A stretch of DNA of 48,495 bases from Clostridia bacterium. Its GTDB lineage: Bacteria > Bacillota > Clostridia > Oscillospirales > CAG-272. The stretch spans positions 1 to 48,495 of the forward strand of contig JAFQGY010000346.1 in assembly GCA_017415325.1 (NCBI GenBank), read 5' to 3'. Below, in pieces: positions 3,645 through 36,945 of this stretch. Within the stretch, counting starts at the first letter, position 1; every line of letters begins with the position of its first letter. The position numbers were made by a program, and so were the translations under genes. The notes under the pieces were generated by a model that ran no database searches, had not been told where the DNA came from, and worked only from the letters and a program-made list of their open reading frames with translations.

Positions 3645-4820
3645 ATGAAGAGAAGAATTTTCTGTGCTGTTATGACAGTGGTACTGGTGCTGACCATGCT
3701 GCCTGTCATCGTTGCTGCGGAAGGCGCCGTTGAAATCGCATTCACGCAGCGGGAAACCAAAGCAGGTGCCACACAGGTGCAGGTGGGCGTTGACATGAGC
3801 AACAACCCCGGTCTGGTTACCGCAACCATTCCCGTAACCTGGGACAATGATGTGCTGCATCTGGTGGATGTAATCCCGTCCGAAGACATTCTGTCCGCCG
3901 GTTGGATCGGCATGTCCATGGATGAATATGAATCCAACGGTACTTACTATCTGGCATGGGACAATGACCTGGCTGAAGCAGACTTCACCACGGAAGTAGG
4001 CTGTCTGGCTGAGCTGGTGTTTGATATTGTGGATCCTTCCAAGGATACCAATACCACTCTGGCGTTTGACATGGACGACCCCATTGCCAACGTGATGAAT
4101 TTTGATATGGAAGACCTGCGGGAAACCGTTACTGTGAATGCGGCAAACGGGACTGTTGCTGTTGCTGCGGAAGCAGGCGGGGATGATCCTGTGGTGGATC
4201 CGGAAAGTGCGCAGTTCTATATGCCTACTGTGGATAGAGTGCGGATGGGTGAACCCTTCTCTCTTCCTGTGGATCTTGTAAATAATGCAGGTCTGTCTTC
4301 TATCATCATTGATGTATACTACGATGCAGATGTTTTCAATTATGTTGATGCAGTATACGGAAGTGAGTTTTTGAAGCCGATTACGAATGCAATGACTGAC
4401 GCTGAAGGCAACCCATTCCTGAGATGTACGTGGGTTGATGGTCTCGAAAATATTGTTGGCGACAAAACTTTTGTAACACTGAATTTCCTTGTAAATGAAG
4501 GTGTTGAAGAAGGTTCTTACGAATTTGATATTGTATATGATCCTGACAATGTGTACATGGTAGAAGGTTATGATTACTATAATGTTGACATGGCTGTTGT
4601 AAAGGGTGTTGCGAATATTGTGGATTATATTCCCGGTGACATTGACGGTGACGGAAATGTAAACGCTAAGGACCAGGGGCGGCTGCTGCAGTATCTGGCA
4701 GGTCTGCCTGTAACTGTGGATGTAAAAGCACTTGATGTCAATGGTGACGGAAATGTAAACGCTAAGGACCAGGGGCGGTTGCTGCAGTATCTGGCAGGTC
4801 TGCCTGTGGAAATTTATTAA
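3645..4820 (+). CDS. Secreted adaptor scaffoldin: cohesin-cohesin-dockerin
   Basis: A 391-residue exported protein. Residues 1-26 are a signal peptide ending VIVAAEG. Cohesin-like domain 1 spans about 28-175 (NNPGL strand, then GCLAELVFDI); cohesin-like domain 2 spans about 189-326 (VNNAGL, TWVDG, VYMVEGYDY). Residues 331-391 form a type I dockerin with two almost identical calcium loops (DGDGNVNAKD). In cellulosomes, cohesins capture dockerins of client proteins, so this protein should hold two clients and dock through its own dockerin to another cohesin, plausibly the SLH-anchored one encoded next. The start at 3645 is set by AAGGAGAGG; an upstream in-frame ATG at 3597 lacks a ribosome site and would disrupt the signal peptide. 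The stop codon overlaps the ribosome site of the next gene, so the two are co-translated. Confidence 0.88.
   Translation: MKRRIFCAVMTVVLVLTMLPVIVAAEGAVEIAFTQRETKAGATQVQVGVDMSNNPGLVTATIPVTWDNDVLHLVDVIPSEDILSAGWIGMSMDEYESNGTYYLAWDNDLAEADFTTEVGCLAELVFDIVDPSKDTNTTLAFDMDDPIANVMNFDMEDLRETVTVNAANGTVAVAAEAGGDDPVVDPESAQFYMPTVDRVRMGEPFSLPVDLVNNAGLSSIIIDVYYDADVFNYVDAVYGSEFLKPITNAMTDAEGNPFLRCTWVDGLENIVGDKTFVTLNFLVNEGVEEGSYEFDIVYDPDNVYMVEGYDYYNVDMAVVKGVANIVDYIPGDIDGDGNVNAKDQGRLLQYLAGLPVTVDVKALDVNGDGNVNAKDQGRLLQYLAGLPVEIY
4647..4807 (+). repeat. DNA-level duplication inside the scaffoldin dockerin
   Basis: Bases 4647-4711 recur at 4743-4807, offset by exactly 96 bases (32 codons), with one difference seen by eye (C versus T near 4683/4779). 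This encodes both dockerin halves, so the two calcium-binding segments are nearly identical in DNA as well as protein. Confidence 0.92.
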
Positions 4821-4830
4821 GGAGTAAATA

Positions 4831-7800
4831 ATGAAAAAGAGTTTATCTGTTATTTTAGCAGTAATGCTCGTAATTTGTATGTTGCCTATCGGAGTATTGG
4901 CAGCTGGTGATCCTATTATGAATATCTCTGACGCTTCTGGTGAAAAAGGTCAGACGGTAAGCGTTAAGGTTGATCTGGAAAACAATCCTGGGATTGCTTC
5001 GTGCATTATTGATTTATATTATGATGGTACAGCATTTACATTTGATAGTGCTGAATATCACAGCAAGATTTCCAAGCCCATTACCAACGCCATGAATGAG
5101 AACGGAAAAAATTGGGTTCGGTTTACATGGGTAGATGGTATGGCAAATGTTACTGGCGATTTCACATTTGTGGATGTTAAATTTGTCATTAACGATGCAG
5201 CGGAATACAAGGAATATCCTCTGGATATCAAGTATAATCCGGAAGATGTATACATGGTTGAAGGATATGATTATTTCAATGTACCGTTCAGCATTGAAAA
5301 GGGTTCCATCACCGTAACCGAAAAGCCTAAGGCTGACTTCACTGAAGACATGTACCTCACTACCAACAAGACCAGCTACACCTATGGTGATACTGTTGCA
5401 GTATCCGTTGCCAATCTGGCTGACGGTGCTGATGTGAAGTACATTGTCAACGATGGCGAACCTGCCGATACCGTAAACATCAAGGATGCCGGTGAATACA
5501 CCATTTCCGCCGTTGTTTCCAAGGATGGTTACAATGATAAGGAACTGGATGCCATTACTGTAAAGATTGCCAAGAAGGACGTTACCATTTCCGGTATTAC
5601 TGCAGCAGACAAGACTTACGATGGTACTGCCAATGTTGATGTGGATACCACGAATGTGGTGATCAATGGAAAGGTTGAAGGGGATGATCTGGAGGCCGTG
5701 TTTCCTGAACCCTTCCAGCTCGACTCTGCCGATGCCGGTAATCGTTCTGTTGTGCTTGCTGGTACCAAGCTTGATGGTGATGCTGCTGATAATTATACGC
5801 TCACATCGGTCGAAGAAGTAACAATTGAAGTATCCAAGAGAGCAATCACTGTAAAGGCTGAAAATGATACCAAGAAAGTTGGAAACAGTGATCCCGATAA
5901 GTTCGTTGCGACTATCACAGAAGGTACTCTTGCTGATGGTCAGGATATCAAATATACTGTATCCAGAGAAGCAGGTGAAGAAGTTGGCAAGTATGCAATT
6001 ACACCTGTTGCTGAAATCACTGCCGATGATAAAGATGTAACGGCTAACTATGAGATTTCGTATCAGAACGGTATTTTTGAAATTATTGACAAGACGCTGA
6101 AGTCCATCGCAGTAACCACTCCTCCCACGGATGTTGAGTATGTTGTTGATGAAACACTGGATATTACCGGTATGGTTGTAACAGCTACATACGACAACGG
6201 TACTACTGATTCCGTGGACGCATATACTGTTCCTGAAAAGATTCAGTTCACAGAAGCTGATATCGGTGAAAAGGAAATTACTGTAAAGTACGGTGAAGCG
6301 ACAGCAACCTTTACAGTAACAGTTATCGCAAAGGAACTCCAGGGTATCACTGTGGATTCCTCCAAGGCAAAGACCGAATACATTGTTGGTCAGACCTTCT
6401 CTGCTGCAGGCCTGCTGGTATACCCTGTGTATAACAACAATGTAGAATATCCTGCGCTGGATTCTGCCGACTACACGGTGGAAGCCCCCGATATGGATAC
6501 TGTGGCAGATGACGCAGTTGCAACGGTTACTTACGAAGGTAAAACCCAGACATACAAGGTTGTTATCAAGGACAAGAGTCTGGAAAAGCAGCTGATTGTT
6601 ACTGAAAAGAACGCCGAAGACATCAAGAACGTTTATGTTGAAGGCAAGACATTCGATTCATCCAACCTGACTGTTACTGCAAAGTATAATAACGGTGATG
6701 AAGTTGTTGTAACCGACTTTACCGTAGAGCTCGCAGGCAGTCTGGCAGTTACAGATAAGTATGTAACTATCAGTTGGACTGATGAAGAACGTGGTCAGAC
6801 TGCTACTTACCAGTATGGCATTACTGTAAATGAAGCAGAAGTAGAGAGTTTCCTGTTTGTATCTTGGGAAAATGAATATATCGAAGATCAGGAATTTGAC
6901 GTTTCTTCTGTTGTTCTGGAAGTATTCTATAACAATGGAACTTCCAAAGAAGTAGTTAGTGGTTTTGCTGTTTCTCCGATGAGAATGACCACAGATATCA
7001 CTTATGTAACTGTTACATATGCTGGTATTTCCATGACAGCAGATGTTCAGGTTTCTGCCAAGGTTCTGGAAGACATTGCTGTTCCCGCAGCTGCTGCAAG
7101 ACAGTATGTTGAAGGCGACAGCTACAAGACTGCCTACATCAATTATATTGAAGCAACCTACAACAACGGTAAGACCTATATGCTGTCTCCTGCCAAGTAT
7201 ACGGTAGAACCGGAAATCATGGCAGTGGATACTACCGAACTGGTATTTACTTACACAGAAGGTGACGTTACCAAGACAGCGACACTGGCTGTAACTGTTC
7301 TGGAATGCGTAGCCACCAACGGTGACGACAGATACGCCAGCATCGTGGATGCTCTCAACGATGCAGAAGATGAAGATACCATCGACGTAATCGGTGAAGC
7401 TGTAATCGACGAAGATGTAATCATCAATGAAGACATCACTGTTGATGTTGATGAAGATGCTTCCCTTACCCAGGAAGAAGACACTGATATTACCGTTTCC
7501 GAAGGTTCTCTGACCATCGTGAACAACACCGAAGAAGATATTACTCTGACCATCAACGGTGAAGAAGTTACTATCGCTGCCGGTGAATCCTACACTGCTG
7601 AACCTGTTGTGGAAGAAGATGACGGCTTTGATGCTTACTATAGCTTCTACATGCAGATGCTCCAGTGGAGAAACCGTATCTTCAATATTAACTACAAGCA
7701 GACTGAAGGCGGTACCGTCTCCGGTCTGAAGAATGCCCGCATCGGCCAGACTGTAACTGTTACCATCACTCCCGACGAAGGCTATGCCATCGCAGATGTA

Positions 7801-8454
7801 CTGGTGAACGGCAAGTCTGTGGGTGCTGTGGAATCCTACAAGATTCGTAACATCAAGTCCAACCAGACCGTTTCCGCTGTATTCGAAAAGATCGCAGCAA
7901 CCAGTCCCTTCGTGGATGTTTCCGTAGACGCTCCTTACTTTGACGCTGTTCTGTACGTATACAACAACGGCATCATCAACGGCGTTTCCGAAACCGAAAT
8001 GGTATTCGCTCCCGACACCACCATGACCCGCGCTATGTTCGTTACCGTTCTGGGCAGAATGTCCGGCGTGAACATGGCTGACTACCCGGTTGTTACCTTT
8101 GCCGACTGCGAAGCCGGTTCCTGGTACGCTCCTTACGTAGAATGGGCCGCACAGGCTGGTATCGTGAAGGGCTACAGCGCAGAAGCCTTCGGTCCCATGG
8201 ACGAAATCACCGTGGAACAGGCTGCTGTAATCCTGTATCGCTACATTGCATACATGGGCTACAACACCGCTGCTGACGCTGATCTGGCGAACTACGCTGA
8301 CGGCGCACAGGTTTCCGAATGGGCTGCAGAACAGATGAAGTGGGCTCTGGCCAACAACATCTACGTTTCCGACACCACTCTGGATCCTCAGGCTCCCGCT
8401 GCACGTTCTCTGGTAGCCGAAATGCTGTACAACCTGTCCGTCTGGAGGGGCTGA
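4831..8454 (+). CDS. Cell-surface anchoring scaffoldin: cohesin, Ig-like repeats, SLH
   Basis: A 1207-residue exported protein. A signal peptide (1-25) is followed by one cohesin-like domain (about 27-163; SKPITNAM, TWVDG, VYMVEGYDY), very similar to cohesin 2 of the preceding gene. Next come a DKTYDGTA-type YDG domain (about 250-335), an MBG-like segment (about 337-420), a series of bacterial Ig-like (Big_3-type) modules with the pattern YNNG or YDNG (about 425-830), an acidic stretch, and a GGTVSG...GY module (about 950-1020). Three SLH domains close the protein (about 1025-1207; FVDV, FADCEAGSWYAPYV, NYADGAQVSEWA). SLH domains bind pyruvylated secondary wall polymers, so this is the predicted wall anchor. 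The ATG at 4831 follows AAGGAG at 4819-4824, which overlaps the upstream stop. Bases of roughly 4200-7200 are visibly more A+T-rich than both flanks. Confidence 0.9.
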   Translation: MKKSLSVILAVMLVICMLPIGVLAAGDPIMNISDASGEKGQTVSVKVDLENNPGIASCIIDLYYDGTAFTFDSAEYHSKISKPITNAMNENGKNWVRFTWVDGMANVTGDFTFVDVKFVINDAAEYKEYPLDIKYNPEDVYMVEGYDYFNVPFSIEKGSITVTEKPKADFTEDMYLTTNKTSYTYGDTVAVSVANLADGADVKYIVNDGEPADTVNIKDAGEYTISAVVSKDGYNDKELDAITVKIAKKDVTISGITAADKTYDGTANVDVDTTNVVINGKVEGDDLEAVFPEPFQLDSADAGNRSVVLAGTKLDGDAADNYTLTSVEEVTIEVSKRAITVKAENDTKKVGNSDPDKFVATITEGTLADGQDIKYTVSREAGEEVGKYAITPVAEITADDKDVTANYEISYQNGIFEIIDKTLKSIAVTTPPTDVEYVVDETLDITGMVVTATYDNGTTDSVDAYTVPEKIQFTEADIGEKEITVKYGEATATFTVTVIAKELQGITVDSSKAKTEYIVGQTFSAAGLLVYPVYNNNVEYPALDSADYTVEAPDMDTVADDAVATVTYEGKTQTYKVVIKDKSLEKQLIVTEKNAEDIKNVYVEGKTFDSSNLTVTAKYNNGDEVVVTDFTVELAGSLAVTDKYVTISWTDEERGQTATYQYGITVNEAEVESFLFVSWENEYIEDQEFDVSSVVLEVFYNNGTSKEVVSGFAVSPMRMTTDITYVTVTYAGISMTADVQVSAKVLEDIAVPAAAARQYVEGDSYKTAYINYIEATYNNGKTYMLSPAKYTVEPEIMAVDTTELVFTYTEGDVTKTATLAVTVLECVATNGDDRYASIVDALNDAEDEDTIDVIGEAVIDEDVIINEDITVDVDEDASLTQEEDTDITVSEGSLTIVNNTEEDITLTINGEEVTIAAGESYTAEPVVEEDDGFDAYYSFYMQMLQWRNRIFNINYKQTEGGTVSGLKNARIGQTVTVTITPDEGYAIADVLVNGKSVGAVESYKIRNIKSNQTVSAVFEKIAATSPFVDVSVDAPYFDAVLYVYNNGIINGVSETEMVFAPDTTMTRAMFVTVLGRMSGVNMADYPVVTFADCEAGSWYAPYVEWAAQAGIVKGYSAEAFGPMDEITVEQAAVILYRYIAYMGYNTAADADLANYADGAQVSEWAAEQMKWALANNIYVSDTTLDPQAPAARSLVAEMLYNLSVWRG

Positions 8455-8527
8455 GTCACAGCAATCCTGTAATGCAGTCTCCCGGAGCAATCCCGGGATG
8501 CGCTGCTGACATCAATATCTGAACCCG

Positions 8528-8576
8528 AAAAGCGGTCGTTTCCCATGAGACAATTGGTGGAATCGGCCGCTTTTGT
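8528..8576 (+). terminator. Terminator of the scaffoldin operon
   Basis: A 16-base arm beginning AAAAGCGG (8528-8543) pairs with GGAATCGGCCGCTTTT (8559-8574) with two mismatches; T residues follow. A second small hairpin, TCCCGG/CCGGGA, sits at about 8480-8499. Confidence 0.8.
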
Positions 8577-8626
8577 CGGATTTTTGTGTTTTCACAGAAC
8601 AAGCTCACAAGAAAAAGGATGACAAT

Positions 8627-10654
8627 ATGATGAAACTGACCAAATGGATCGGTGTGCTGGCAGGGCTGGCGGCAGGGACTGTCATGATCACCGGCGCCGC
8701 AGCGGAAACCGTTCCGGAAACATTGTCCCTCCTGTACAAAGGAGATCTGGTGCCTGTGTTTTTTGATGCAGACCGGCAGGAGGCATTTACAGAACCACAG
8801 GCAATTGTCTATGATGCACTTGCGGATGCCGTGAATTCCGGCGCAGAACGGGTGTCTGTAGCGGATGCGGCATATACGGATGTGGCGGAACTGCATGCTT
8901 TCGTGCAGGAAACGCTGAATGTGGAAGTGTACTGGCCCCATGTGGAACGGGAAGTGCAGTATAGTACCGATGACCAGACCGGCGTGGTGACAGAACTGCT
9001 TCTGACCTACTCTGCGGACGACCGGTACAGCTTTTCCGGGGAAACCAGTGCGGCCGCCGGCATCACCACCATCGAACAGGGTGTGGCACATGCCATGGCA
9101 GCCATCCGGGACGATATGACCGATCTGGAAAAGGTGCTGGCGATCCACGATTATCTGGTGCGGGAAGTGGATTACGATCCGGGGTATCCGGACAATATCA
9201 ATGAAGACTCCTACTGGCTCGAGGGCGTTTTCCTGAACCGGATTGCCGTGTGCAACGGGTATGCGCTGGCCTATTCCCATCTTCTGAGCCAGTGCGGCAT
9301 TGACTCCTATGTGGTTTCCTCCGACCCCATGAACCATGCCTGGAACCTGATTGAGCTGGACGGAACCTGGTACCATGCCGACGCCACCTGGGACGACCCC
9401 TCCAATCAGTGCGGCGGATTTGTGTACCATAAGTATTTCCTGAAAAGCGATGCGGAATTTGAAAACGAACTGGGGCATTACAGCTGGGTAATCCAGAACA
9501 GCGGCGGAACAGCGGCACCGGAAGCCACCGTCAGCGACAGCTTTGCCGGATATGCTTTCCGGGAAACGGCGGATGATGTGCGTCCCGGGATGCTGAACGA
9601 GCTGGACGGCACCTATTACTACCTGTCAAACGTGTGGGGCAGCAATACCATGTATGTTTCCGACATCTCCCGTACGGAGGTACAGCAGATCACCCTGCCG
9701 GTAACGGTGGAGTTTCTGTTCCTGTATGACGGGAAACTGTACGGAAATACCGCCAGCCGGGTCTACGAAATGGATCTGGCGGGGAATATCCTCCGTACGG
9801 TAGCGGCCTCTCCGGAGCAGATCGTCAATTTCTGGCTGAAGCTGGATACGCTGTCCTATTGTGTGCAGCATGGGGACGGAACCCAGTCCGTTCTGGATGT
9901 GGATCTGGTGAACGGCGCCACAAACCTGATTACGGAAAACGGCCTGACCTATATCATTAACGGCGGAAAGGCCACCCTGGTGGAAGCGGACGAAACCATC
10001 ATCGATCTGACAGTGCCGGCAGCGGTAAGCGGATACCCGGTGACGGCCATCGGTGCCTCTGCCCTGGAAGGAAACCGGAATCTGGTAACTGTGTTTCTCC
10101 CGGATGGACTGGAAACCATCGGAAACAGAGCGTTCATGCAGACCGGTCTGAGAAGGGTGGGCATCCCGGCTTCTGTAACCTATATCGGCGACATGGCGTT
10201 CTGGAACAACTATTCCATGACCATGATGACGATCGAAGGGAATCTGGACTATCTGGGCAATGAAGCGTTCAAATACTGTTACAGACTGGCGAATGTCTGG
10301 TTTGACGGAAATGCGCCCAGAACCGTGGGCACAAATGTATTTACGGAATGCGACGCTGATTTTACCATCTATTATAATGTAGGAACCACCGGCTGGAGCA
10401 CTCCCACCTGGTCCCCCAATGCCAATGAAAGCTACAACGCTGTCATGCTCACTCCCGTAGGGGATCTGACCGGTAATGGTACGGTGGATCAGGAGGACGT
10501 TTCCATGATCTCCGACTGGTTCGCCGGGAAGTATGCCGAAGTGCCCTTTGAAACCTACAAGGCCGACTTCAACGGCGACGGGAAGTTCAGCCGGGCGGAC
10601 GGTATGTATCTGGCAAGAGCACTGGCGGGCTGGGAAGGATACACCCTGAGCTGA
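8627..10654 (+). CDS. Secreted transglutaminase-like/LRR protein with C-terminal dockerin (1 of 3)
   Basis: A 675-residue exported protein. Residues 1-26 are a signal peptide. A transglutaminase-like fold spans about 150-300, with the full Cys209-His237-Asp252 triad seen in IAVCNGYALAY, MNHAWN and HADATWDD. Residues 310-440 look like a small beta-propeller or sheet region (repeated LDGTYYY and LYDGKLY segments). BspA-type leucine-rich repeats follow (about 445-600; ETIGNRAFMQT, YIGDMAFW). A dockerin ends the protein (612-675; GNGTVDQED and NGDGKFSRAD). Members of this fold act as cross-linkers, peptidases or inactive binders, so catalytic direction is inferred only. ATG 8627 is preceded by AAAAAGGA; no strong promoter is visible after the terminator at 8576. 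The next gene follows after 64 bases. Confidence 0.88.
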   Translation: MMKLTKWIGVLAGLAAGTVMITGAAAETVPETLSLLYKGDLVPVFFDADRQEAFTEPQAIVYDALADAVNSGAERVSVADAAYTDVAELHAFVQETLNVEVYWPHVEREVQYSTDDQTGVVTELLLTYSADDRYSFSGETSAAAGITTIEQGVAHAMAAIRDDMTDLEKVLAIHDYLVREVDYDPGYPDNINEDSYWLEGVFLNRIAVCNGYALAYSHLLSQCGIDSYVVSSDPMNHAWNLIELDGTWYHADATWDDPSNQCGGFVYHKYFLKSDAEFENELGHYSWVIQNSGGTAAPEATVSDSFAGYAFRETADDVRPGMLNELDGTYYYLSNVWGSNTMYVSDISRTEVQQITLPVTVEFLFLYDGKLYGNTASRVYEMDLAGNILRTVAASPEQIVNFWLKLDTLSYCVQHGDGTQSVLDVDLVNGATNLITENGLTYIINGGKATLVEADETIIDLTVPAAVSGYPVTAIGASALEGNRNLVTVFLPDGLETIGNRAFMQTGLRRVGIPASVTYIGDMAFWNNYSMTMMTIEGNLDYLGNEAFKYCYRLANVWFDGNAPRTVGTNVFTECDADFTIYYNVGTTGWSTPTWSPNANESYNAVMLTPVGDLTGNGTVDQEDVSMISDWFAGKYAEVPFETYKADFNGDGKFSRADGMYLARALAGWEGYTLS

Positions 10655-10718
10655 TCGACGCAGGAATGTTCTGCCGGAGAAACCGGTTTTATAACAGGAA
10701 TCACAGAGGAATAGTCAC

Positions 10719-12656
10719 ATGAAACTTCAGAAAACCATATCTGTCCTGACGGCGCTGTTGCTGACGATGCAGTGTGCTGTTCTGCCTGCATGGGCGGAAT
10801 CTGCAGAACCGGTACCGGCAGGCAGTTATCAGATCAACCCCATCGGCAGTGACCTTCTTCCGGAAGATCTGCCGGAACCCGAGGGGGAACAGGGCGAAAC
10901 GCTGTTTGTGGAGCAGGCAGCAGTATATTACACGACCGTGGAAGACGCAGCCGATGCGATCATGGATGCCATGAAGAGACGGGAAGCGGCCATTTCCGTA
11001 GGTGTCACCCGGGAAGTGTACGATATTCTGAACAGCACGGATGCGCATCCCCATAACGTCCTTTTTGACGCAGCCTGCGAGCACGATCCGGACGACCCCA
11101 CCGCCGGGGACTATACCGGTCAGCTGTACCACTACTGGCAATCCGATGCAACCAGCTGGAACGGAAACAACGCCACAATTGTCTATCATGTTATCTACCG
11201 CACAACGCTGGCGGAAGAACAGCTGGTGGATGCCGCCGTGGCTGAACTGGTGGCCCAATGGACTGCTGCAGACATGGAACCATACGATACCATCTGTACG
11301 ATCTATGACTACATTACCGAAAACGTGGTGTATGACTATGCCGGTCTGGATGCAGGGGATCTGCATGTCTATACGGCGTACAAGGGTCTGATCGAGGGTA
11401 CCGCCGTATGCATGGGGATTGCCAATCTGTTCTACCGGCTGGCCATGGAAATGGGGATTGACGCCCGGATGATCCACAGTATTGATCGGGAAAACCATAC
11501 CTGGAACATCGTGGAATTGGACGGGCTGTACTACAATCTGGACGCCACATGGGATCTGGGAACGAATCCTGTTGCGTACAATTATTTCCTCCTGAGCCCG
11601 GAAATCTTCGGTATCGGCCACAACCGCCGGAGTGATTACGACACAGCAGCATTCCATCAGGCGTATCCCATGGACACTGTGGGGTATCTGCCCTTTGAGG
11701 GATCTGATTCCGGTACCTGCGGGGAAAACCTGACCTGGACCCTGACGGACGAGGGGATTCTGTCCATCGAAGGCACCGGTGCCATGTACGACTACAATTT
11801 CCGCCGGAACGGAGAGAACTGTTCCCCCTGGAGCCCCTGGACGGCAAAAATCACCGGACTGAACATCGGTGAGGGCGTGTCCTATCTGGGAAACTGGGCA
11901 TTTATGGAGTGCGTTGGTCTGGATTCCATTGCGATTCCCGGCAGTGTTGAGAGAATCGGATCCGGCACCTTTGCGTTCTGTGAATGGTATACGGAACTGA
12001 CGCTGTCGGAAGGACTGCAGCATATCGGCGGCATGGCGTTTTACGGCTCCAAAATCGATACGCTGAACCTTCCTTCCACGCTGCAGACCATTGGCAGTCA
12101 GGCGTTTTCCTCCTGTCTCCGGATCACGGAGCTGACCATTCCGGAAAATGTGACAAACATCGGCGACATGGCCTTCTCCTATAATACCTCTCTGGAAACC
12201 CTGCGGATTCTGGGGGATCTGGACTATCTGGGCGTGCAGGCGTTCTCCTGGTGTTATCCCCTGACCCGTGTGGAATTCCATGGGGGTGTGCCGGGGACAT
12301 GGTGGTCAGGACTGTTCAGTGAAAACGACCAGGATCCCGTGATTTATGCCGCCCGCAGCGATGCGTGGACTCCCTATGAGGGGACGGACGGCAGCCTGCT
12401 GTGGAATGCACCGGACGGAACGGCATACAAGTTTGAGTGGCTGGACGGGGAGGAGACCCCCGGCGACCTGACCGGTGACGGAAAGACGGACGAAGACGAT
12501 GCCGCCATGATTTCCGCCTGGTTTGCCGGCATGTACGCGGAAATTCCCTTTGACCCCGAAATGGCCGACTGCAACGGTGACGGAAAATTCACCCGGGCGG
12601 ACGGTATGTATCTGGCAAGAGCACTGGCAGGCTGGGAAGGATATACCCTGCCGTGA
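10719..12656 (+). CDS. Secreted transglutaminase-like/LRR protein with C-terminal dockerin (2 of 3)
   Basis: A 645-residue exported protein with a signal peptide (1-27). The transglutaminase-like domain (about 70-300) keeps Cys231, His260 and Asp275 in GTAVCMGIANLFYR, ENHTWN and YNLDATWD. A cap segment TLTDEGILSIEGTG (about 343) leads into BspA-type leucine-rich repeats (about 380-530; SYLGNWAFMEC, TIGSQAFSSC, NIGDMAFSY). The dockerin occupies about 582-645 (TGDGKTDEDD, NGDGKFTRAD, ending GWEGYTLP), of the same subclass as the preceding gene. AGAGGAA precedes the ATG. The 64-base upstream and 104-base downstream gaps contain no clear terminator, so 8627-18166 is probably one operon. Confidence 0.88.
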   Translation: MKLQKTISVLTALLLTMQCAVLPAWAESAEPVPAGSYQINPIGSDLLPEDLPEPEGEQGETLFVEQAAVYYTTVEDAADAIMDAMKRREAAISVGVTREVYDILNSTDAHPHNVLFDAACEHDPDDPTAGDYTGQLYHYWQSDATSWNGNNATIVYHVIYRTTLAEEQLVDAAVAELVAQWTAADMEPYDTICTIYDYITENVVYDYAGLDAGDLHVYTAYKGLIEGTAVCMGIANLFYRLAMEMGIDARMIHSIDRENHTWNIVELDGLYYNLDATWDLGTNPVAYNYFLLSPEIFGIGHNRRSDYDTAAFHQAYPMDTVGYLPFEGSDSGTCGENLTWTLTDEGILSIEGTGAMYDYNFRRNGENCSPWSPWTAKITGLNIGEGVSYLGNWAFMECVGLDSIAIPGSVERIGSGTFAFCEWYTELTLSEGLQHIGGMAFYGSKIDTLNLPSTLQTIGSQAFSSCLRITELTIPENVTNIGDMAFSYNTSLETLRILGDLDYLGVQAFSWCYPLTRVEFHGGVPGTWWSGLFSENDQDPVIYAARSDAWTPYEGTDGSLLWNAPDGTAYKFEWLDGEETPGDLTGDGKTDEDDAAMISAWFAGMYAEIPFDPEMADCNGDGKFTRADGMYLARALAGWEGYTLP

Positions 12657-12760
12657 CCTTCTGCCATGCGGCTTCCCGCTAAAACGGACGCCGGAACGCA
12701 AACTCCCATGCAATGGACATCTGTATCTGTGGGTACGGAGGTCCGGAAAGGAAACATATC

Positions 12761-25800: not shown

Positions 25801-25929
25801 TCCGGTTATCCCACCGAGATCAGCATGGATGCGGCGGATGTGGACGGCGACGGCAGACTGACCCGCAGAGATGTCATGATCTATGCCCGGTATATGGACA
25901 ACTGGGAAGCGTATGACCTGTACTTCTGA
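22840..25929 (+). CDS. Secreted triple CBM9-like / LRR protein with dockerin
   Basis: A 1029-residue exported protein. A signal peptide (1-23) precedes three tandem CBM9/DOMON-like domains (about 40-245, 267-477 and 487-697), each with the same landmarks: DGxxxEGEY at the start, MSWDxDYxY in the middle and YExRxPF near the end. A capped BspA-type LRR block (about 700-960; IIGTNAFLDC, EIAIFAFEHC) and a dockerin (966-1029; TGDDAVTEND, DGDGRLTRRD) follow. The first dockerin loop has Asp-Asp where the others have Asp-Gly. The ATG is preceded by AAGGAGAGG. It has its own promoter and terminator. A binding or adhesive role on the predicted scaffold is inferred; no catalytic domain is visible. Confidence 0.88.
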   Translation: MKKLYAAMAAAGLAGLLALSAGAMYIGDDLSGFTEISVYPMQAEAWIPDGVFSEGEYHEIHYERGWVSANTTLDEDAQAGKDLDFTLAMSWDGDYIYTYVQYVDENGYDSSYAANQMYLGNMLQLNFALGDAGGENLYSVEMTRYDQGDLGAYSWYDYLVSGWLPTAGTDYTVIVEETAAGKDLVTYEARVPFDVFCEFEPSNGERYSMLPLISWGSEGELIHTQLGCGRSEGLWVFGFVNFTLRDSAPVQTENYWPEAEGAFQKLDLCVPYREAEWNPADGEMGEGEYFLIEEDSSWNSASVGDPALLETAKYLDYTLGMSWDQDYLYTYMEFIDPDGHVNEGDAENIWNNGGLQIGLACGDRSGGGFLEYGISRSTADDSLMAHQWNANEGGAYDASGNFNVVVTDLENGTSKVVYEVRTPFDAYTDWGVQSGMVSSVAYVLCWGNNAVAHTQMSSGISGQMGKDAACFADIILTGGPANYIDEEDVGNVAFTVEQATAAWAADGMYSEGEYFDIDVQNTWMSAFSSDPFLTEDVKNLDFDLAMSWDEDYLYSYVKFTAPGGYVPTPAGNPGEMWGYTCLQVGAADTDCTGGNRLEYGLATDTDGDMISANWSDYSYNPEGNYGVFVDGSTVVYELRTPFTAFSRYLPSDGNEYGIGYVMSTSIDTGNLRHTQLASGISGDPGKDAARFATITLNGETYDYSVAWELSDDGTLTVSGSNPIMGYNSADEQPWAEVRDQIKAIVIEGSVGIIGTNAFLDCVNAETITIGEGIEEIAIFAFEHCAAVKTIHIPESVTNISVGAFKRCYSLEAFTVDADNDSYTAQDGVLFTKDMIRLLRYPLNKQDTFYKVPDSVVVLSAAAMEELQNLTDLTLPVHLESIENWCFYGTTGLQEIRIPARLEFLDSYAFGGCTSLTDVYFAGSKPWVRFAEDAFADTTEGITLHYHAGKEGWDTVEGYRMDMMGFRGDITGDDAVTENDLLLLQQYYSGYPTEISMDAADVDGDGRLTRRDVMIYARYMDNWEAYDLYF

Positions 25930-29060: not shown

Positions 29061-29097
29061 ATTGGGGAACAACAATACAGGAGGACAACAGAGGATT

Positions 29098-31977
29098 ATG
29101 AAGACAATGAAAAAACTGCTGCTTACGGCTGGAATGCTGGCACTGCTGATGCTGCCGGTACAGGCGGAGGATGCTGAGCCGGTGTATATGCCTGCCCATG
29201 CACCTGCCGGAGCAGAGGAAGAAATGACCGGTTCATCCGGTTTCGGGGAAACATCCGCAGCATTCCAGGAGTGGAACAATATCCAGTGGGAATTCGATGA
29301 AACCACAGGGACACTGACGATCACAGGGCAGGGGAAAATGCCTGGATGGAGTTTCAGAGATGCCCCATGGGTCGGACATGCTGCTCAGGTAAAGACGGTA
29401 ATTGTAGGAGAAGGTATTACCTATATCGACAGCTGGGTACTTTCTTGCAGAGATATGCCGTATACTGCCCTCCATCTGCCGTCAACGCTGGAATATATAG
29501 ATGTAAACATGCTGGAGAACACTTCTCTGAATACCATTACGGTTGCAGAGGGCGGTATGTATTATGTAGAAGATAATGTTCTTTTCTGTAAAGATGGAAA
29601 TATGGTGACACTGAGCTTTTATCCGGGCGGTCTGACGAATACGGAATATACCGTTCCTGAGGGTGTTTCACATATTGGCAGATCTGCATTCGTCAATCGG
29701 AATCTGAAGAAGGTAACTCTGCCGGAAAGTCTTGTGGGAATCGGATATGTGGCGTTCGATGGTGCATACAGTCTTACGGAAATAACAATTCCGGCAGGGG
29801 TATCGGAGATTGATCTTGCAGCATTTGTGTATAGTGGTCTGCAAAATATTTATGTGGATCCAGACAACACCTGCTATACTTCTGTGGACGGCGTTCTGTT
29901 TACAAAGGATATGTCTATGCTGCATACCTATCCGGAGCGTAAAGAAGGGAACGGAGAATATACGGTGCCGGACGGAGTAACCGATGTGGTTTCAACCATA
30001 ATGTCTCTGAGCTATATTCGAAAGCTGTATCTGCCGGCTTCCGTGGAACGGCTGGTATCTGCTGGTACAGGGGCTTCCTCCTCTGCCTGGCTTCGTGAAA
30101 TCTATGTTGCGGAGGACAATCCGTACATGACGAGCGTGGATGGTATTCTGTACAGCAAGGATGTGACAGAACTGCTGTGGTATCCCAACAATCATTCCAA
30201 TATAGAATATACGGTACCGGATACGGTAGAACATATATACAGTTCTTCTTTCTGGTGGATCACCAATCTGCAGACAGTAATTTTCAACGATAAGGTATCT
30301 GTTGACGGATTTCTGCAGTGGGGAAACACCCTGACAGCGATGTACTTCCCTGGGAATGTTCCGGCCTGGCTGAATGATGCATGCAGGAGTGTGAAGGATC
30401 AGGCTATCCTGTACTATCCCAATGGAAACCCCACCTGGACGGACGGCTCCATGACAGTGGATGGGTATACCTATACCACAGCGGCATACGGAGAAGGGGT
30501 AGAAGACAGCACTGTATGGAACACATGGGAGAATATCGAGTGGTTCTATTACGATGTTACAGGCATCCTGAAGGTTCGCGGAACGGGTACCATCCCCGAT
30601 GTGGAATATGCAGAATATCCGTGGAATTCCTACAGATTCAACATCAAAAACCTGACTGTGGAAGCCGGCATCACCGATATTCCCTGGGGGGCATTTTATG
30701 GGTGTTATAATATGCTGTCCGTAAATCTCCCTGCTACGCTGGAAAGTATGAATACGGAATTTCTCATAAATGCATATAGCTTAAGAAGTCTTCAGGTAGA
30801 AGAAGGCGGTACCATATATACAGAGGACGGCGTGCTGTTTTCTGCGAAAGATAAGTCGCTGCTTCTGTATCCGCGATATCTGCAGAATGCATCGTATACT
30901 GTACCGGAAGGGACTATACGCATTGCATACAACGCTATAAACGGAAACGGTTCGCTGAAAGAACTGATTCTTCCGGAATCTCTTGAAGAAATCATGGGAA
31001 GGGCGCTGCAGATATCCGGTCTGGAGAGTCTGTACATTCCCAAAAATGTCCGGTATATTGATATGAACGGGATCCGTTTCTGTGATTATCTGACGGAAAT
31101 CACGGTGGATGCCGATAATCCCTATTATAAATCTGTGGACGGTATTCTTTTCACGGAAGATATGACAGTACTGCATACCTATCCGATGGGTCGTACGGCG
31201 GCTGAATACACGGTGCCGGATACGGTTGTGATAATGCCTGCTGCTGTATATACACAGGTACGGCAGCTGAAAAAACTGAATATTCCCGCTTCTGTGGAAG
31301 AGATCTGTGCGGCTACCGGCTGGTCTGGCGGATGCGTACTGGAAGAAATCGTGGTGGATCCGGACAATGCATATTTCTGTTCCGAAGACGGCGTGCTGTA
31401 CAGCAAGGACAAGACCGTACTGTACCATTATCCTGCCTGTAAAGAAGAGAAAGAATACCATATACCGGATTCGGTAACCACAACGATGTCTTTATGTATC
31501 TATGATGCGGATTATCTGGAAACACTGTATGTCGGGAAGAATATTGCCGATGTTCGGGATGCTATATTAGGCGGAACCTTCCCCCGACTCACCGGGGTCT
31601 ATTTCCAGGGGGATTTCCCGGACTATTTCTGGAAGGCATTCAACAATCTGCTCTACAGAGGAACAAAGTGTACATTCTATTATCCGGAAGGTGCCGAAGG
31701 ATGGAGCAGCCCCACCATGGAGATCAATGGATTTACATTCACCACTGCGGCATACACCCCCGACACTGCTGACATTCCCGCAGGTGACATCACCGGCGAC
31801 GGAACCACCGACCAGAATGACCTGTCTCTCCTGACCCAGTATTTCTCCGGCTACCCCACCGAAATCGATGAATCTGCTGTGGATCTGGACGGAAACGGGA
31901 AGCTGACCCGGAAGGATGTCATGATTCTCGCCCGGTATCTGGCCGGATGGGATGGGTATGACCAGTACTTCAGCTGA
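29098..31977 (+). CDS. Secreted BspA-type LRR protein with dockerin, tandem paralogue 2
   Basis: A 959-residue exported protein and the clear tandem paralogue of the preceding gene: same signal peptide (MKTMKKLLLTAGML...), same two capped LRR blocks (TTGTLTITGQGKMP near 75, VTGILKVRGTGTIP near 490), same DGxLFTKDM/YSKD alternation and a nearly identical dockerin (894-959; TGDGTTDQND, GNGKLTRKD, GWDGYDQYF). The two proteins diverge most in the LRR faces, while the ends are conserved in DNA, as expected if ends are exchanged by recombination. The ATG at 29098 follows AGGAGG and AGAGGA; the in-frame ATG at 29062 lies at the -10 box and is rejected. It is followed by a third copy of the terminator. 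Confidence 0.87.
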   Translation: MKTMKKLLLTAGMLALLMLPVQAEDAEPVYMPAHAPAGAEEEMTGSSGFGETSAAFQEWNNIQWEFDETTGTLTITGQGKMPGWSFRDAPWVGHAAQVKTVIVGEGITYIDSWVLSCRDMPYTALHLPSTLEYIDVNMLENTSLNTITVAEGGMYYVEDNVLFCKDGNMVTLSFYPGGLTNTEYTVPEGVSHIGRSAFVNRNLKKVTLPESLVGIGYVAFDGAYSLTEITIPAGVSEIDLAAFVYSGLQNIYVDPDNTCYTSVDGVLFTKDMSMLHTYPERKEGNGEYTVPDGVTDVVSTIMSLSYIRKLYLPASVERLVSAGTGASSSAWLREIYVAEDNPYMTSVDGILYSKDVTELLWYPNNHSNIEYTVPDTVEHIYSSSFWWITNLQTVIFNDKVSVDGFLQWGNTLTAMYFPGNVPAWLNDACRSVKDQAILYYPNGNPTWTDGSMTVDGYTYTTAAYGEGVEDSTVWNTWENIEWFYYDVTGILKVRGTGTIPDVEYAEYPWNSYRFNIKNLTVEAGITDIPWGAFYGCYNMLSVNLPATLESMNTEFLINAYSLRSLQVEEGGTIYTEDGVLFSAKDKSLLLYPRYLQNASYTVPEGTIRIAYNAINGNGSLKELILPESLEEIMGRALQISGLESLYIPKNVRYIDMNGIRFCDYLTEITVDADNPYYKSVDGILFTEDMTVLHTYPMGRTAAEYTVPDTVVIMPAAVYTQVRQLKKLNIPASVEEICAATGWSGGCVLEEIVVDPDNAYFCSEDGVLYSKDKTVLYHYPACKEEKEYHIPDSVTTTMSLCIYDADYLETLYVGKNIADVRDAILGGTFPRLTGVYFQGDFPDYFWKAFNNLLYRGTKCTFYYPEGAEGWSSPTMEINGFTFTTAAYTPDTADIPAGDITGDGTTDQNDLSLLTQYFSGYPTEIDESAVDLDGNGKLTRKDVMILARYLAGWDGYDQYFS

Positions 31978-32002
31978 GGAAAACCCTATACAGCCATAAC
32001 CG

Positions 32003-32050: not shown

Positions 32051-32111
32051 TGGGAGTAATTAATCTGCCTTTAAAAAATCATGGCCAAAGGGATTTTTCT
32101 GATAAAATCGC

Positions 32112-32140
32112 TTGCAATTTGCATTCTTTGGTGTTATACT
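32112..32140 (+). promoter_or_regulatory. Sigma-A promoter of the 1583-residue gene
   Basis: TTGCAA (32112-32117), 17 bases, TATACT (32135-32140), 53 bases before the start codon. Confidence 0.83.
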
Positions 32141-32193
32141 TATACATGGACAAATATTGTCATGGCAAAATTTTCTAAGAGGAGAGAGAACCA

Positions 32194-35100
32194 ATGAAAC
32201 GCAAACTTTGGACAGCGCTGCTTCTGGCGGCCCTGACGACGACCCTGCTTTCCACGGCTGCGGCTGCGGAAGACTGGGGAAGCGGCGGATGGGAAGTGGC
32301 CAAGCGGAAAGCGGACTGGAATCCGGACGGTATCTGGGCAGAAGGGGAATACTATTCCGTTGACCCGGCCTATGATACGGAAAACTATCAGGCTGCCAAC
32401 GATGAACTGTACGAACGGGCAGAAAATCTGAACTACATGATGGCGATGTCCTGGGACGAAGACTACCTGTACACGTACATTTCCTATCAGGCACCCGCCG
32501 AACCGGTTGTTTCCGCAGACCTGTGGGACGGCCATGTGATTCAGTTCTCCGGGACAGATGTGGGGAACGAAACCATTTATAATGAAAATGGGGAAGTAAC
32601 AGATGACCCCCGCCTGGAAATCGGGATTACCAGAAATTTTGAAACCGACGAGAAGATCAGTACCAACTGGTGCACCTGGCTGGATTCTGACTATGGCTTC
32701 GATTCCAACTGTACGGACGACTTCGAAGCGTTCTTCTGCGACGGTTGGGTGACTTACGAATTCCGCGTGCCCTTTGCCGCATTCTCGGAGATTACCCCTG
32801 CGGTGAACGAACAGGTCGGCGTGGCGTATGTGATTGCCGTTGGGGACGGGGACTGGAATTATTCCCATGTCCAGATCGGGCAGGGCGTCACCGGCGGGAA
32901 GCATGCGGAACTGCATTCTGTGATCACCCTGACGGATACATTTGAGTTTCCGGAACGGGACGGCAATGCGTACTATATCCTGTTCCATAATATCGGGAAC
33001 AACAATCCCCACAGCGAATATTTCTCATACTATGAAAGCGGTGACAGCCTGCAGTATTACGGTACGGACGGCGCTGAAGATACCGCATATGCAGACGACC
33101 TGCTTGCCCTTCTGCCGGAAGAAAAACGGGAAGAAATGCAGAACGTGGAAGGGTATGATTTTATCAACTTCCGTCTTGCATACTGGAACGAGACAGACGG
33201 TGTCGGCTCCGTGGTGGAAAACCGGCAATTCAAGCTGACGGACAAGGTTTCTCTTGCGGATGTACAGGACTATGCGTTCTACGACGGGTACAACTGGTGC
33301 ATCATGTTCACCGCCTGCTATGACCCGGAAATGTACACCGTAAAGTTCAACAACATCGGGAACGTGAATCCGGGCGACTACTGGTCGGCACAGAAGATGG
33401 ATGTTGTTCCCTTTGACACCAACTTCTACGATATTTTCCCGTATGAATGGGACTACCCGACTCTGTTTGACGTACCCGGGTTCCGGTTCGACCGCTGGCG
33501 TGTGCTGGACTTCACCAATGAAGTGGAAAATCCCGGATATGAAGAACAGTACATGAGCGGCGGCGCCATGTATTACGGCGGTGCTGCTACAGAAGACGGG
33601 AGATACCCGCTGGACGGCTTCATTGCCGGATTTGCTTCCGAAATGGAAAGTGACGAATATCCGGTCATTACCCTCCGTGCGGTGTATTATCCCATCGACT
33701 ACACCATCCGCTTTGTGGACGATGACGGCGTGACGGAACTGCGGGATTCTGTGGTTCTGCACATCGGTGACGGGATCCGTGACCACTTCCCGGAAATCCC
33801 CGAGAAGGACTACGGTACCTTTACCCACTGGAAGCTGGACTGGGTGAACGGGGAAGACGGCTTCTATACCATGCCGTATGACGACGCAGACAACCCGGGA
33901 TACCCCATTGACGAAAACCTGATCGAAAAGTGTGCCGTGGATACCGATGATGACGGGTTCGGCGACACCATCACCCTCGTGGCGGAATACGAGCTGAACG
34001 AAGATGCCGGGGATCTGCGTGCATCCGGTATCATCGAAACCGAAAACGGCGATATCCAGTGGGAAGTACACTGGAACGGCCTGCTGTTTGTGGGCAACCA
34101 TGACCTGATAAACGGGCTTGTGATTCCGGATTATGAGATCTGGGAGGGCGTTTATGCACCGTGGCATCCCTACAGAAACTACATCACCGAACTGGAAATC
34201 GGCAGTGAAATTGGCGTGATCGGTAAAAATGCCTTTGCGGAACTGCAGAGAGTGGACTATCTCTTTATTCCCGGCAACGTAAAGGAAATCCGCGAAAATG
34301 CATTTATTGACTGCTGGAATGTAGGCTATATCGAACTGGATTACGGTATCGAAAAGATCGGCCGGGACGCATTCTGCGGCTGCAATACCGGCGATCTCTG
34401 GATTCCCGAAACTGTGACCGAAATGGACAGAGCTTCCTTCGCCCATCTGGGTACCAACTGGTACGGTGTGGACGGGAATAACCCTGTGTTCCATGCAGTA
34501 GACGGCGTCCTGTTCTATGAAGCAGACGGCCGGTACATCCTTTGGGCATATCCCAAGTGGGATGGACGACCTTCCTATGCAGTGCCGGAGGGTGTGGATA
34601 CCATCGGCGCCTGTGCATTCAAATGGGCAGAAAACGTAAAATCTGTGATTCTGCCGGATTCTCTGAAGTCTATCGAAGACGCTGCATTCTCCCGCTCCGG
34701 TGTGGAAACCATTCAGATTCCCGCCGGTGTGGTATTCCTGGACAACGGGGCATTTGAAGGTACGAATTCCCTGTCTTCCGTATACTTCTACGGCCCTGTT
34801 CCGACAGACTATGTAGGGTATGAGGTATTTACGGAAAACACCGACGACTTTACCATCTACTATCTCGAAGGTCAGGAAGGCTGGACGGAAGGTACATGGG
34901 ACAACCCCTATACGGAAGATGCAGCGGAAGCATATCCCACCGCCACCTTCTCCGCAGATGTCAACTTTGCGGAAGGTTCCATTGAAGGGTATGACATCAC
35001 ATGGTACATCACCATGGACGGCAGGCTGTATGTAAACGGCTCCGGCGAAATCCCGGACTATATCTGGGAGTACGGCTACAGCTGGTATGACCATATGAAT

Positions 35101-36945
35101 TCCATCCGGGAAATCCATATCGGCGACGACATCACCCGGATCGGGAACCATGCCTTTGACTGCGCATGCTATGTATCTGCTCTGACCCTGCCGAAGAATC
35201 TGGTGGAAGTCGGCGCACATGCATTCAATGGACAGTACAACAATGTGGGTACTCTGGTACTGCCCTATCAGGTGGAAACACTGGATTACAGCGCGTTCTG
35301 GGATATGGGTATCACCAAGGTAACCATTCCCGCATCCACCACCCTGATCGTCGGCAACGTATTTGCAGGCTGTCCCGTGGAAGAATACGTGGTGGAAAGC
35401 GGTAACCCTGTACACATGGCAGATGAATACGGTGTACTGTATTACTTGGAAAACGGTAAAGTGGCGGCAATTACCGCATATCCCATGGCCTCCGAACTGA
35501 CCGAATACACCATTCCCGAAGGGGAAGTGGAAATCGACGGCGTAACCTACGACTTTGCCGTAACCGACATCGACGACAGAGCGATTCACTGCACATGGAA
35601 TCTGGAAAAGATCACACTGCCGGAAACCCTGTGTGTGATCAAGGAACACAGTCTGAGCTACAACAACAATCTGTGGGAACTGACCATTCCTGCTTCCGTA
35701 TGCGAACTGTATCGGGATGCCCTGGCCTACAACTGGAACCTGCCCTCCATCCTCTTTGAAGGGAACAAGCCCGATATGCATGATGAGGAAGAAGGAACCC
35801 AGTTTAGGGAAAGCGGCGGCTATTGCGATACAGAATTCACCATCTACTACTACGAAGGTGCCGAAGGCTGGGCGGACTACACTCTGTACAAAACCGTGGC
35901 CATCGGTGAAGACGGTGTGATGTACAGCGGTACCATTGACGATACTATCACATGGTACATCACTGCGGACGGCAAGCTGTATGTAAACGGTTCCGGTTCC
36001 ATCCCGAACGATGTAGGAGATTATGAATACAGCTGGCATAACCACAAGGATTTTGTAAAAGAAATCCACATCGGCGAAGGCATCAAGGTGATCGGAAACA
36101 ACGCATTCTCCGGCTTCGGCAATGCGACTGTGCTGACTCTGCCGGATTCTCTGGAAGAAATCTGGACTGGCGCATTCCATGATACGGGCATCACCCATGT
36201 GACCATTCCTGCGGCTACATGGCAGATCATTGACAATGTATTCGGCGGCAGCCCTGTGGAAGAAATCACAGTGGAAGAAGGCAACCTCTGGCATGCAGTG
36301 GACGAATACGGTGCGCTGTATTATATGGAAGATGAAAACTATGGCTATCTGCTGTCCTATCCTGCCGCATCTGAGGGTACGGAACTGACAGTACAGGAAG
36401 GCACACACCACATCGGCAACCATGCTATTTACGGAACTTCTCTGACCTCCATTACCCTGCCCGGTTCTCTGCAGCATATCGGTTACGCCGGGATCTGCCT
36501 TAACGAAGGTCTGACCTCCCTGACCATTCCCGCTTCTGTGGGAGAGGTGGAAGAACGGGCTCTGGCATACAACAGGAATCTCAGTGCCATTACCTTTGAA
36601 GGCGACAAGCCCAATCTGTGGAGTGAAGAAGAAGGACTGCAGTTCGAACAGAACGCCGAAGACTTCACCATCTACTACTACGAAGGTGCCGAAGGCTGGG
36701 TGGACTATACTCTGTATCCCACCGTGGCGCTGCGGCGTACTTCCAAGGGGGACGTTACCGGGGACGGCAAGGTGACAGAAAACGACCTTGCTCTCCTGAC
36801 CCAGTACTTCGCAGGCTATCCTGTGGAAGTGGATGTATCCGTCATCGACATCGACGGTGAAAACGGCCTGACCCGGAAGGATGTCATGATCCTGAAACGG
36901 TACATCGCCGGCTGGGAAGGCTACGACCAGTACTTCGCAGAATAA
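32194..36945 (+). CDS. Giant secreted CBM9-like / LRR protein with dockerin
   Basis: A 1583-residue exported protein. A signal peptide (1-25) is followed by one CBM9/DOMON-like domain (about 30-250; DGIWAEGEY, MSWDEDYLY, YEFRVPF), two or three InlB/bacterial-repeat-like beta segments (about 385-600; YTVKFNNIG, YTIRFVDDDG), and three LRR blocks (about 615-930, 940-1215, 1225-1510). Blocks two and three open with nearly the same cap (TWYIT.DG.LYVNGSG). A dockerin closes it (1518-1583; TGDGKVTEND, then DGENGLTRKD with one extra residue in the calcium loop, GWEGYDQYF). AGAGGAGAG precedes the ATG. It is monocistronic with its own promoter and terminator. The role is inferred as a multivalent binding component of the scaffold. 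Confidence 0.88.
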   Translation: MKRKLWTALLLAALTTTLLSTAAAAEDWGSGGWEVAKRKADWNPDGIWAEGEYYSVDPAYDTENYQAANDELYERAENLNYMMAMSWDEDYLYTYISYQAPAEPVVSADLWDGHVIQFSGTDVGNETIYNENGEVTDDPRLEIGITRNFETDEKISTNWCTWLDSDYGFDSNCTDDFEAFFCDGWVTYEFRVPFAAFSEITPAVNEQVGVAYVIAVGDGDWNYSHVQIGQGVTGGKHAELHSVITLTDTFEFPERDGNAYYILFHNIGNNNPHSEYFSYYESGDSLQYYGTDGAEDTAYADDLLALLPEEKREEMQNVEGYDFINFRLAYWNETDGVGSVVENRQFKLTDKVSLADVQDYAFYDGYNWCIMFTACYDPEMYTVKFNNIGNVNPGDYWSAQKMDVVPFDTNFYDIFPYEWDYPTLFDVPGFRFDRWRVLDFTNEVENPGYEEQYMSGGAMYYGGAATEDGRYPLDGFIAGFASEMESDEYPVITLRAVYYPIDYTIRFVDDDGVTELRDSVVLHIGDGIRDHFPEIPEKDYGTFTHWKLDWVNGEDGFYTMPYDDADNPGYPIDENLIEKCAVDTDDDGFGDTITLVAEYELNEDAGDLRASGIIETENGDIQWEVHWNGLLFVGNHDLINGLVIPDYEIWEGVYAPWHPYRNYITELEIGSEIGVIGKNAFAELQRVDYLFIPGNVKEIRENAFIDCWNVGYIELDYGIEKIGRDAFCGCNTGDLWIPETVTEMDRASFAHLGTNWYGVDGNNPVFHAVDGVLFYEADGRYILWAYPKWDGRPSYAVPEGVDTIGACAFKWAENVKSVILPDSLKSIEDAAFSRSGVETIQIPAGVVFLDNGAFEGTNSLSSVYFYGPVPTDYVGYEVFTENTDDFTIYYLEGQEGWTEGTWDNPYTEDAAEAYPTATFSADVNFAEGSIEGYDITWYITMDGRLYVNGSGEIPDYIWEYGYSWYDHMNSIREIHIGDDITRIGNHAFDCACYVSALTLPKNLVEVGAHAFNGQYNNVGTLVLPYQVETLDYSAFWDMGITKVTIPASTTLIVGNVFAGCPVEEYVVESGNPVHMADEYGVLYYLENGKVAAITAYPMASELTEYTIPEGEVEIDGVTYDFAVTDIDDRAIHCTWNLEKITLPETLCVIKEHSLSYNNNLWELTIPASVCELYRDALAYNWNLPSILFEGNKPDMHDEEEGTQFRESGGYCDTEFTIYYYEGAEGWADYTLYKTVAIGEDGVMYSGTIDDTITWYITADGKLYVNGSGSIPNDVGDYEYSWHNHKDFVKEIHIGEGIKVIGNNAFSGFGNATVLTLPDSLEEIWTGAFHDTGITHVTIPAATWQIIDNVFGGSPVEEITVEEGNLWHAVDEYGALYYMEDENYGYLLSYPAASEGTELTVQEGTHHIGNHAIYGTSLTSITLPGSLQHIGYAGICLNEGLTSLTIPASVGEVEERALAYNRNLSAITFEGDKPNLWSEEEGLQFEQNAEDFTIYYYEGAEGWVDYTLYPTVALRRTSKGDVTGDGKVTENDLALLTQYFAGYPVEVDVSVIDIDGENGLTRKDVMILKRYIAGWEGYDQYFAE

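Follow-up and report, generated by a model that had tools for sequence, protein, structure and literature searches.

A gene cluster in a Clostridia bacterium that probably encodes its own cohesin-dockerin display system for the cell surface

Contig JAFQGY010000346.1 of a Clostridia bacterium (GenBank assembly GCA_017415325.1) was analyzed over its 48,495 nucleotides (hereafter the window; contig C320 in our numbering). Between positions 3645 and 36945, its plus strand encodes ten proteins with cohesin or dockerin modules. The ten genes follow one another in unbroken series, with 10-216 bases between the listed open reading frames (ORFs); the gaps widen if later, likelier start codons hold (3645, 4831, 8630, 10719, 12761, 18401, 22840, 26112, 29107 and 32194). 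A crude hydropathy check, the only one applied, gave a signal-peptide-like N-terminus for all ten products. The first gene (3645..4820) encodes a ScaA-like adaptor scaffoldin, here called ScaA, that comprises a signal peptide, cohesin 1 (3717..4181), cohesin 2 (4197..4631) and a C-terminal symmetric dockerin (4632..4820, placed with Dockerin_1). The second (4831..8454) encodes an anchor scaffoldin that combines cohesin 3 (4921-5226) with several Ig-like modules and SLH; Pfam assigned YDG/MBG_2/Big_3, Flg_new_2 and SLH domains. A scan of positions 3000-13000 for promoters and terminators identified nothing above shuffled controls.

The remaining eight genes encode proteins that we term clients, each ending in a dockerin. 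All eight match the leucine-rich repeat (LRR) family LRR_5, and three also match Transglut_core. These three transglutaminase-like clients (8630..10654, 10719..12656 and 12761..18166) come first in the series; the third has a long stretch before its dockerin, and in its listed ORF (12713-18166, plus strand) Pfam assigned no confident family between the LRR region and the dockerin. Two clients follow that combine LRR_5 with modules of the carbohydrate-binding module family 9 (CBM9) fold: the product of 18401..22678 has two such modules (19871-20500 and 21812-22456), and the product of 22840..25929 has three (22927-23580, 23632-24273 and 24316-24933) ahead of its LRR_5 region. The clients at 26112..28931 and 29107..31977 resemble each other and consist of LRR_5 and dockerin, and the last (32194..36945) has a CBM9-fold module (32287-32940) before LRR_5. 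On the minus strand, an outlying client (41902..43494; listed ORF 41902-43557) has its dockerin at the N-terminus, and Pfam found no second family in it. Dockerin_1 thus scores above its cut-off ten times in the window: in ScaA, in all eight clients and in the outlying protein. An earlier note on this DNA had described three cohesin-like domains and nine dockerins in ten consecutive secreted proteins, with a tenth dockerin at 41.9-43.5 kb, and both Pfam and hhalign agree with that description. The families it had named (Cohesin, Dockerin_1, LRR_5, Transglut_core and SLH) were all matched in hidden Markov model searches, and the CBM9 modules were recognized by fold and barely by Pfam.

The three cohesins fall into two types. 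In a six-frame Pfam search, cohesin 2 (34.3 bits) and cohesin 3 (45.2 bits) scored above the Cohesin cut-off; these two are mutual best matches with 47% identity (E 1e-40). Cohesin 1 is remote from both and alone falls under the cut-off, at 22.6 bits; profile-profile comparison nevertheless aligned it to other cohesins (hhalign probability 98.5, E 1.9e-15). A search of the PDB with the cohesin 1 profile returned two cohesin entries with E-values of 0.02 and 0.039, too weak to be used by themselves. An NCBIfam assignment of ScaA as CelK was rejected, as the match covers only the dockerin and reaches 27 of 1700 bits, far under cut-off. Among the genomes searched, the sole clear ortholog of cohesin 1 is in genome G253 of the same genus (42%), where it is a lone protein of 265 aa (locus L158:8723-9517, plus strand) with a signal-peptide-like start and no further Pfam family. 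A profile built from these two sequences scored 289 and 276 bits in the two source genomes, at most 51.5 bits elsewhere among 395 genomes of the family, and at most 36.4 bits (in G256) elsewhere among 25 genomes of the genus.

The dockerins likewise divide, and the locus uses two dockerin codes, one shared by the clients and one in the ScaA adaptor. The client code, R[KRA]DxMx[LFY]xR, was counted by script in 16 of 17 dockerins of the genome, the exception being that of ScaA; an eighteenth, on contig C230, is a contig-end fragment too short for the script and has the code by eye, which brings the total to 17 of 18. In the outlying minus-strand protein, the code is in dockerin repeat 1 and not in repeat 2. 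We aligned 15 client dockerins (all except those of ScaA, ORF 41902-43557 and contig C330), numbering from the first Asp of the calcium loop. Positions 10, 14 and 18 of repeat 2 are invariant R, M and R, and mean entropy at positions 10, 11, 17 and 18 is 0.65 bits in repeat 2 and 2.42 bits in repeat 1. These four positions are the predicted recognition positions of Ruminococcus albus dockerins in the excerpts available of PMC4081043, and we assume the same numbering here. The ScaA dockerin has A, K, L and Q at these positions in both repeats, which also share a long identical stretch. Outside the genome, we counted the client code in fetched stretches of 28 genomes: it was present in four of six dockerins of G251 and five of nine of G253, and in none of 120 dockerins of the remaining 26 genomes.

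The genome assembly spans 3.87 Mb in 433 contigs and is 92.3% complete with 4.6% contamination. Pfam Cohesin matched three places genome-wide, every one inside the window. Dockerin_1 matched 18 places, of which ten are in the window, together with the three cohesins within about 40 kb; the other eight are on contigs C21, C83 (two), C133, C138, C230, C272 and C330. Because the client code is common to C320 and these seven contigs, the window is not readily explained as a contaminant relative to them. A CsaB-family match (PF04230) is present besides SLH. Except for the C230 protein, which is cut by the contig end, all dockerin proteins of the genome could be read. Twelve of these 17 have LRR_5, including those of C21, C83 (both) and C330, and three of the twelve also have Transglut_core. 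The protein of C272 (locus L003) is a subtilase with a client-code dockerin N-terminal to the protease, in an ORF that runs past the contig end; the C133 protein has CBM9_1 and CBM_35 matches, both under cut-off; and in two proteins (ORF 41902-43557 and that of C138) the dockerin is the only family above cut-off. ScaA completes the set.

This inventory bears on whether the local scaffold serves these proteins at all. The clients might instead be secreted adhesins, and their dockerins might serve to bind some other partner or the cohesins of different species, which would make the scaffold next to them incidental; excerpts of PMC4081043 do describe numerous dockerins in R. albus and in other microbes that have one cohesin or none. 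We regard this as very improbable, since the scaffold genes run straight on into those of the eight clients on the same strand, 10-216 bases apart as listed, and a single code runs through 17 dockerins, all but that of ScaA.

The cargo of the readable dockerin proteins includes no recognized glycan-cutting enzyme. No glycoside hydrolase (GH), polysaccharide lyase (PL) or carbohydrate esterase (CE) family was found by Pfam in the eight clients (E up to 1, the limit also used for ScaA and the anchor) or in any of the 17 readable dockerin proteins (E up to 0.1 for ORF 41902-43557 and the proteins of other contigs), so the absence of such enzymes from the clients, as seen in the earlier note, extends across 17 of the 18 dockerin proteins of the genome. 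ScaA and the anchor also have no CBM family at E up to 1. Carbohydrate-related matches in the clients were all sub-threshold, namely CBM77 (0.012 and 0.071) and CBM9_1. The CBM9-like modules, in six copies over three clients, are nearly invisible to Pfam (best CBM9_1 match, 0.33). A PDB sequence search with them returned chance matches only (best E 0.17), and we used fold comparison instead: the predicted fold of the module, first labeled CBM9/DOMON, is that of CBM9. Given this fold, some clients may bind sugars, and a description of the cargo as not for polysaccharides is therefore too strong.

We extended the cargo analysis to relatives. Dockerin matches occur in 21 of 25 genomes of the genus, and our sample covers 77 ORFs of 107 matches outside the genome itself, from 15 genomes in two sets (46 and 31 ORFs); G248, G249, G251, G256 and G259 are represented in part, and G250 and G261-G264 lie outside it. 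For each set we considered the best 25 families (of 36 and of 32), ranked by members and then by E-value; families beyond these are single-member matches weaker than ~2e-5 and ~8e-5, respectively. LRR_5 occurred on 19 of 46 and 11 of 31 ORFs, Transglut_core on three and six, and Cohesin on four in the second set. No GH family is among the families listed for the 77 ORFs, where the single matches include NAGPA (phosphodiester glycosidase), GDSL (weak) and Cthe_2159 (carbohydrate-binding). As a control, we scanned 32 dockerin ORFs of other genera, from 20 picked regions of four genomes; the best 25 of 29 families included LRR_5 (9), SASA (3), AXE1 (2), GDSL (3) and GH26 (1). The scan therefore detects carbohydrate enzymes where they are present, and LRR cargo, being frequent outside the genus, is not unique to it. 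GH48 was matched in none of the 25 genomes of the genus and in none of the 14 control genomes, and we do not use it as evidence.

Together with the CBM9 fold, which is a carbohydrate-binding one, some of these results could be read as signs of a reduced cellulosome for glycan breakdown, either with its GH-dockerin proteins lost in assembly gaps or with free GHs acting near sugar-binding clients. A GH36 gene adjoins the cluster, the genome has six GH5 matches (four over cut-off; contigs C197, C116, C384, C55, C337 and C153), and other genera of the family do have esterases and GH26 on dockerin proteins. However, none of the six GH5 contigs is a dockerin contig, and the lack of GH, PL and CE families on the genome's own readable dockerin proteins, like their absence from the families listed for the genus, makes this explanation quite unlikely.

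In the three transglutaminase-like clients, C, H and D are invariant within the motifs AVCxG, NHxWN and DATWD; we take these to be the catalytic triad positions of the transglutaminase-like superfamily. A PDB search with one of the transglutaminase-like regions returned no matches. If these domains are cysteine peptidases that act alongside the subtilase client, the locus could be a surface protein-processing station, with LRR and CBM9 modules used for targeting. The conserved triad, the client-code dockerin of the C272 subtilase, and the S8 and M6 peptidase families on same-genus dockerin ORFs are in keeping with this idea, yet just four of the 17 readable dockerin proteins have such a domain and 12 have LRR_5, and we consider it fairly unlikely.

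The scaffold plan recurs in the family. Cohesin matches occur in 130 of 246 family genomes sampled, and among 16 genomes whose loci were read, having been picked for matching ScaA, cohesin or dockerin queries, 15 contain cohesin-dockerin (Coh-Doc) dyads like the end of ScaA, 19 dyads in all. Several dyad dockerins are near-symmetric, of NNKDxTRLxQYL type. A second cohesin gene adjoins the dyad gene in G112, G037, G051, G003, G223, G090 and G246; its cohesin is C-terminal in G037, G051 and G003 and near the N-terminus in the others, as in the window. The two kinds of cohesin pair off as each other's best match in the window, in G223 and in G056, and they are close to one another in G232 and G112. 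Four neighbor genes were scanned, of which those of G246 and G223 have SLH and those of G112 and G090 have cohesin alone. The product of the G112 gene has NPQTG near its end, followed by a hydrophobic stretch and then a basic tail; we take this to resemble a sortase signal. Payloads upstream of the dyad are LamG and LRR_5 (G246), Big_3 (G112 and G037) and MACPF (G037). In the G037 protein (L161:12458-17437, minus strand), MACPF and Big_3 repeats precede the terminal dyad, a payload very unlike the LRR clients. Conservation of the cluster as a whole within the genus was considered and rejected, as only the scaffold plan recurs in the stretches read (G246, L170).

Based on these results, we consider it probable that the locus encodes a self-contained cohesin-dockerin display system of the cell surface, anchored by SLH domains, with cohesin 1 as the client socket. 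The SLH anchor (4831-8454) would sit in the cell wall and present cohesin 3, into which ScaA (3645-4820) would dock by its symmetric dockerin. Cohesin 1 of ScaA would then receive clients with the common code, supplied by the cluster and by seven other contigs: LRR, CBM9-fold, transglutaminase-like and subtilase proteins. In the eight clients of the cluster, Pfam identified no anchor domain of their own. The expected outcome is a surface coat of exchangeable binding and protein-processing modules without glycoside hydrolases. Such a coat may let the cell adhere to surfaces made of glycan or protein, and cross-linking or proteolysis may contribute. As far as sequence can indicate, the assembly is well supported: the locus has its own anchor, its own adaptor and a common client code, and the genome yielded no further cohesin. 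This supports in part the suggestion in the earlier note of a dedicated surface structure, whose adhesive or cross-linked nature is conjectural. For the client socket, cohesin 1 is the strongest candidate, because the genome with its ortholog, G253, has the client code too.

Because cohesins 2 and 3 are sisters, the ScaA dockerin may also dock into cohesin 2 of another ScaA. A tentative extension, which we hold to be possible, is that ScaA forms a head-to-tail polymer through cohesin 2 that terminates at the SLH anchor, on cohesin 3. Each ScaA unit would expose one cohesin 1, giving a non-covalent surface filament whose LRR, CBM9 and transglutaminase-like clients can be exchanged and in part could cross-link it covalently. 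Elsewhere in the family, proteins of the same X-Coh-Doc plan would have LamG, LRR, Big_3 or MACPF in the place of cohesin 1.

Several observations weigh against the proposed display system. An hmmscan of the full 1207-aa anchor listed no Cohesin at E up to 1, so cohesin 3 rests on its six-frame score and its identity to cohesin 2. The kinship of cohesins 2 and 3 may reflect duplication without common specificity, and in G246 the two cohesins are not mutual best matches. The cohesin 1 part of the ScaA structure model is poor (pLDDT < 50). The link between cohesin 1 and the client code comes from one genome, G253, which itself has a second weak cohesin (C335:34926, Pfam 24.8 bits); G251 (70% complete) has the client code, no cohesin 1 and two weak cohesin matches on its contig C81. 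A kindred motif without the first R, DRMILAR, occurs in G256 (5 of 5 dockerins) and in some dockerins of G099, and because G099 has no cohesin 1, near relatives of the client code appear to be served by other cohesins. In several relatives the neighbor cohesin is C-terminal with no visible anchor, so such a gene pair is not always adaptor and anchor. Finally, the entire cluster was not met in any relative, no dedicated synteny search having been made, and because the assembly is fragmented, a divergent cohesin or a GH-dockerin protein may be missing from it.

Near the cluster, the plus-strand gene at 39745-40110 resembles a HicB-type antitoxin. Two minus-strand ORFs (40247-41791 and 46752-48296) are lipoprotein-like and by eye have the look of ABC solute-binding proteins; Pfam is silent on both at E up to 0.1.

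Peer et al. are said to have described, in 2009, non-cellulosomal cohesin and dockerin proteins, mostly as isolated modules. The proposed system shares with those proteins the use of cohesins and dockerins outside cellulose degradation; unlike such isolated modules, it links an anchor, an adaptor and eight clients. The clients have secreted LRR_5 repeats like BspA-type LRR proteins, and unlike them carry dockerins. Cellulosomes and amylosomes have the same parts, that is, cohesins, dockerins, adaptor and anchor scaffoldins and a surface anchor module (SLH here), whereas the locus studied here has no GH, PL or CE family on readable dockerin proteins, and neither its ScaA nor its anchor matched a CBM family.

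The closest precedent is in Ruminococcus flavefaciens FD-1, for which excerpts of PMC2930009 describe five consecutive dockerin genes (ORF01263-01267) encoding four transglutaminase-like proteins and one LRR protein, in a putative operon, and 28 LRR modules on dockerin proteins; the authors raise the possibility that the cell surface is structured by dockerins of group 4. Excerpts of PMC2930009 and PMC5301203 further describe symmetric group-4 dockerins, several of which bind the single-cohesin surface anchor ScaE, and a Coh-Doc protein, ScaH, whose dockerin recognized its own cohesin; in PMC5301203, group 1a LRR dockerin proteins bind the ScaA cohesin of the cellulosome itself. Like the group-4b proteins of FD-1, as presented in those excerpts, our clients are consecutive secreted transglutaminase-like and LRR proteins with C-terminal dockerins. 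In FD-1, however, they belong to one arm of a larger cellulosome, which has an anchor of sortase type and 222 dockerin proteins, many of them GH-bearing. The present assembly is all that was found in its genome; the SLH anchor and the adaptor are in the cluster, and CBM9-fold modules occur on LRR clients. The putative FD-1 operon is thus closer than the earlier note had assumed when it took a whole locus of this kind to be undescribed as a system, and that claim is weakened. Our searches of open-licence PMC papers brought up no account of a GH-free locus that unites an anchor, an adaptor and clients of its own.

The excerpts of PMC4081043 also record non-cellulolytic microbes in which dockerins are numerous and cohesins few, and the role of non-cellulosomal cohesins and dockerins is raised as an open question there and in the excerpts of PMC2930009. 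The set here is small, with three cohesins, two dockerin codes and, in one cluster, an anchor, an adaptor and eight clients; as no cellulosome was seen alongside it, this locus makes that role testable with a few purified domains. Cohesin matches are spread over more than half of the family genomes sampled, which suggests that plugs of the cohesin-dockerin type may serve this family generally as a means of surface display.

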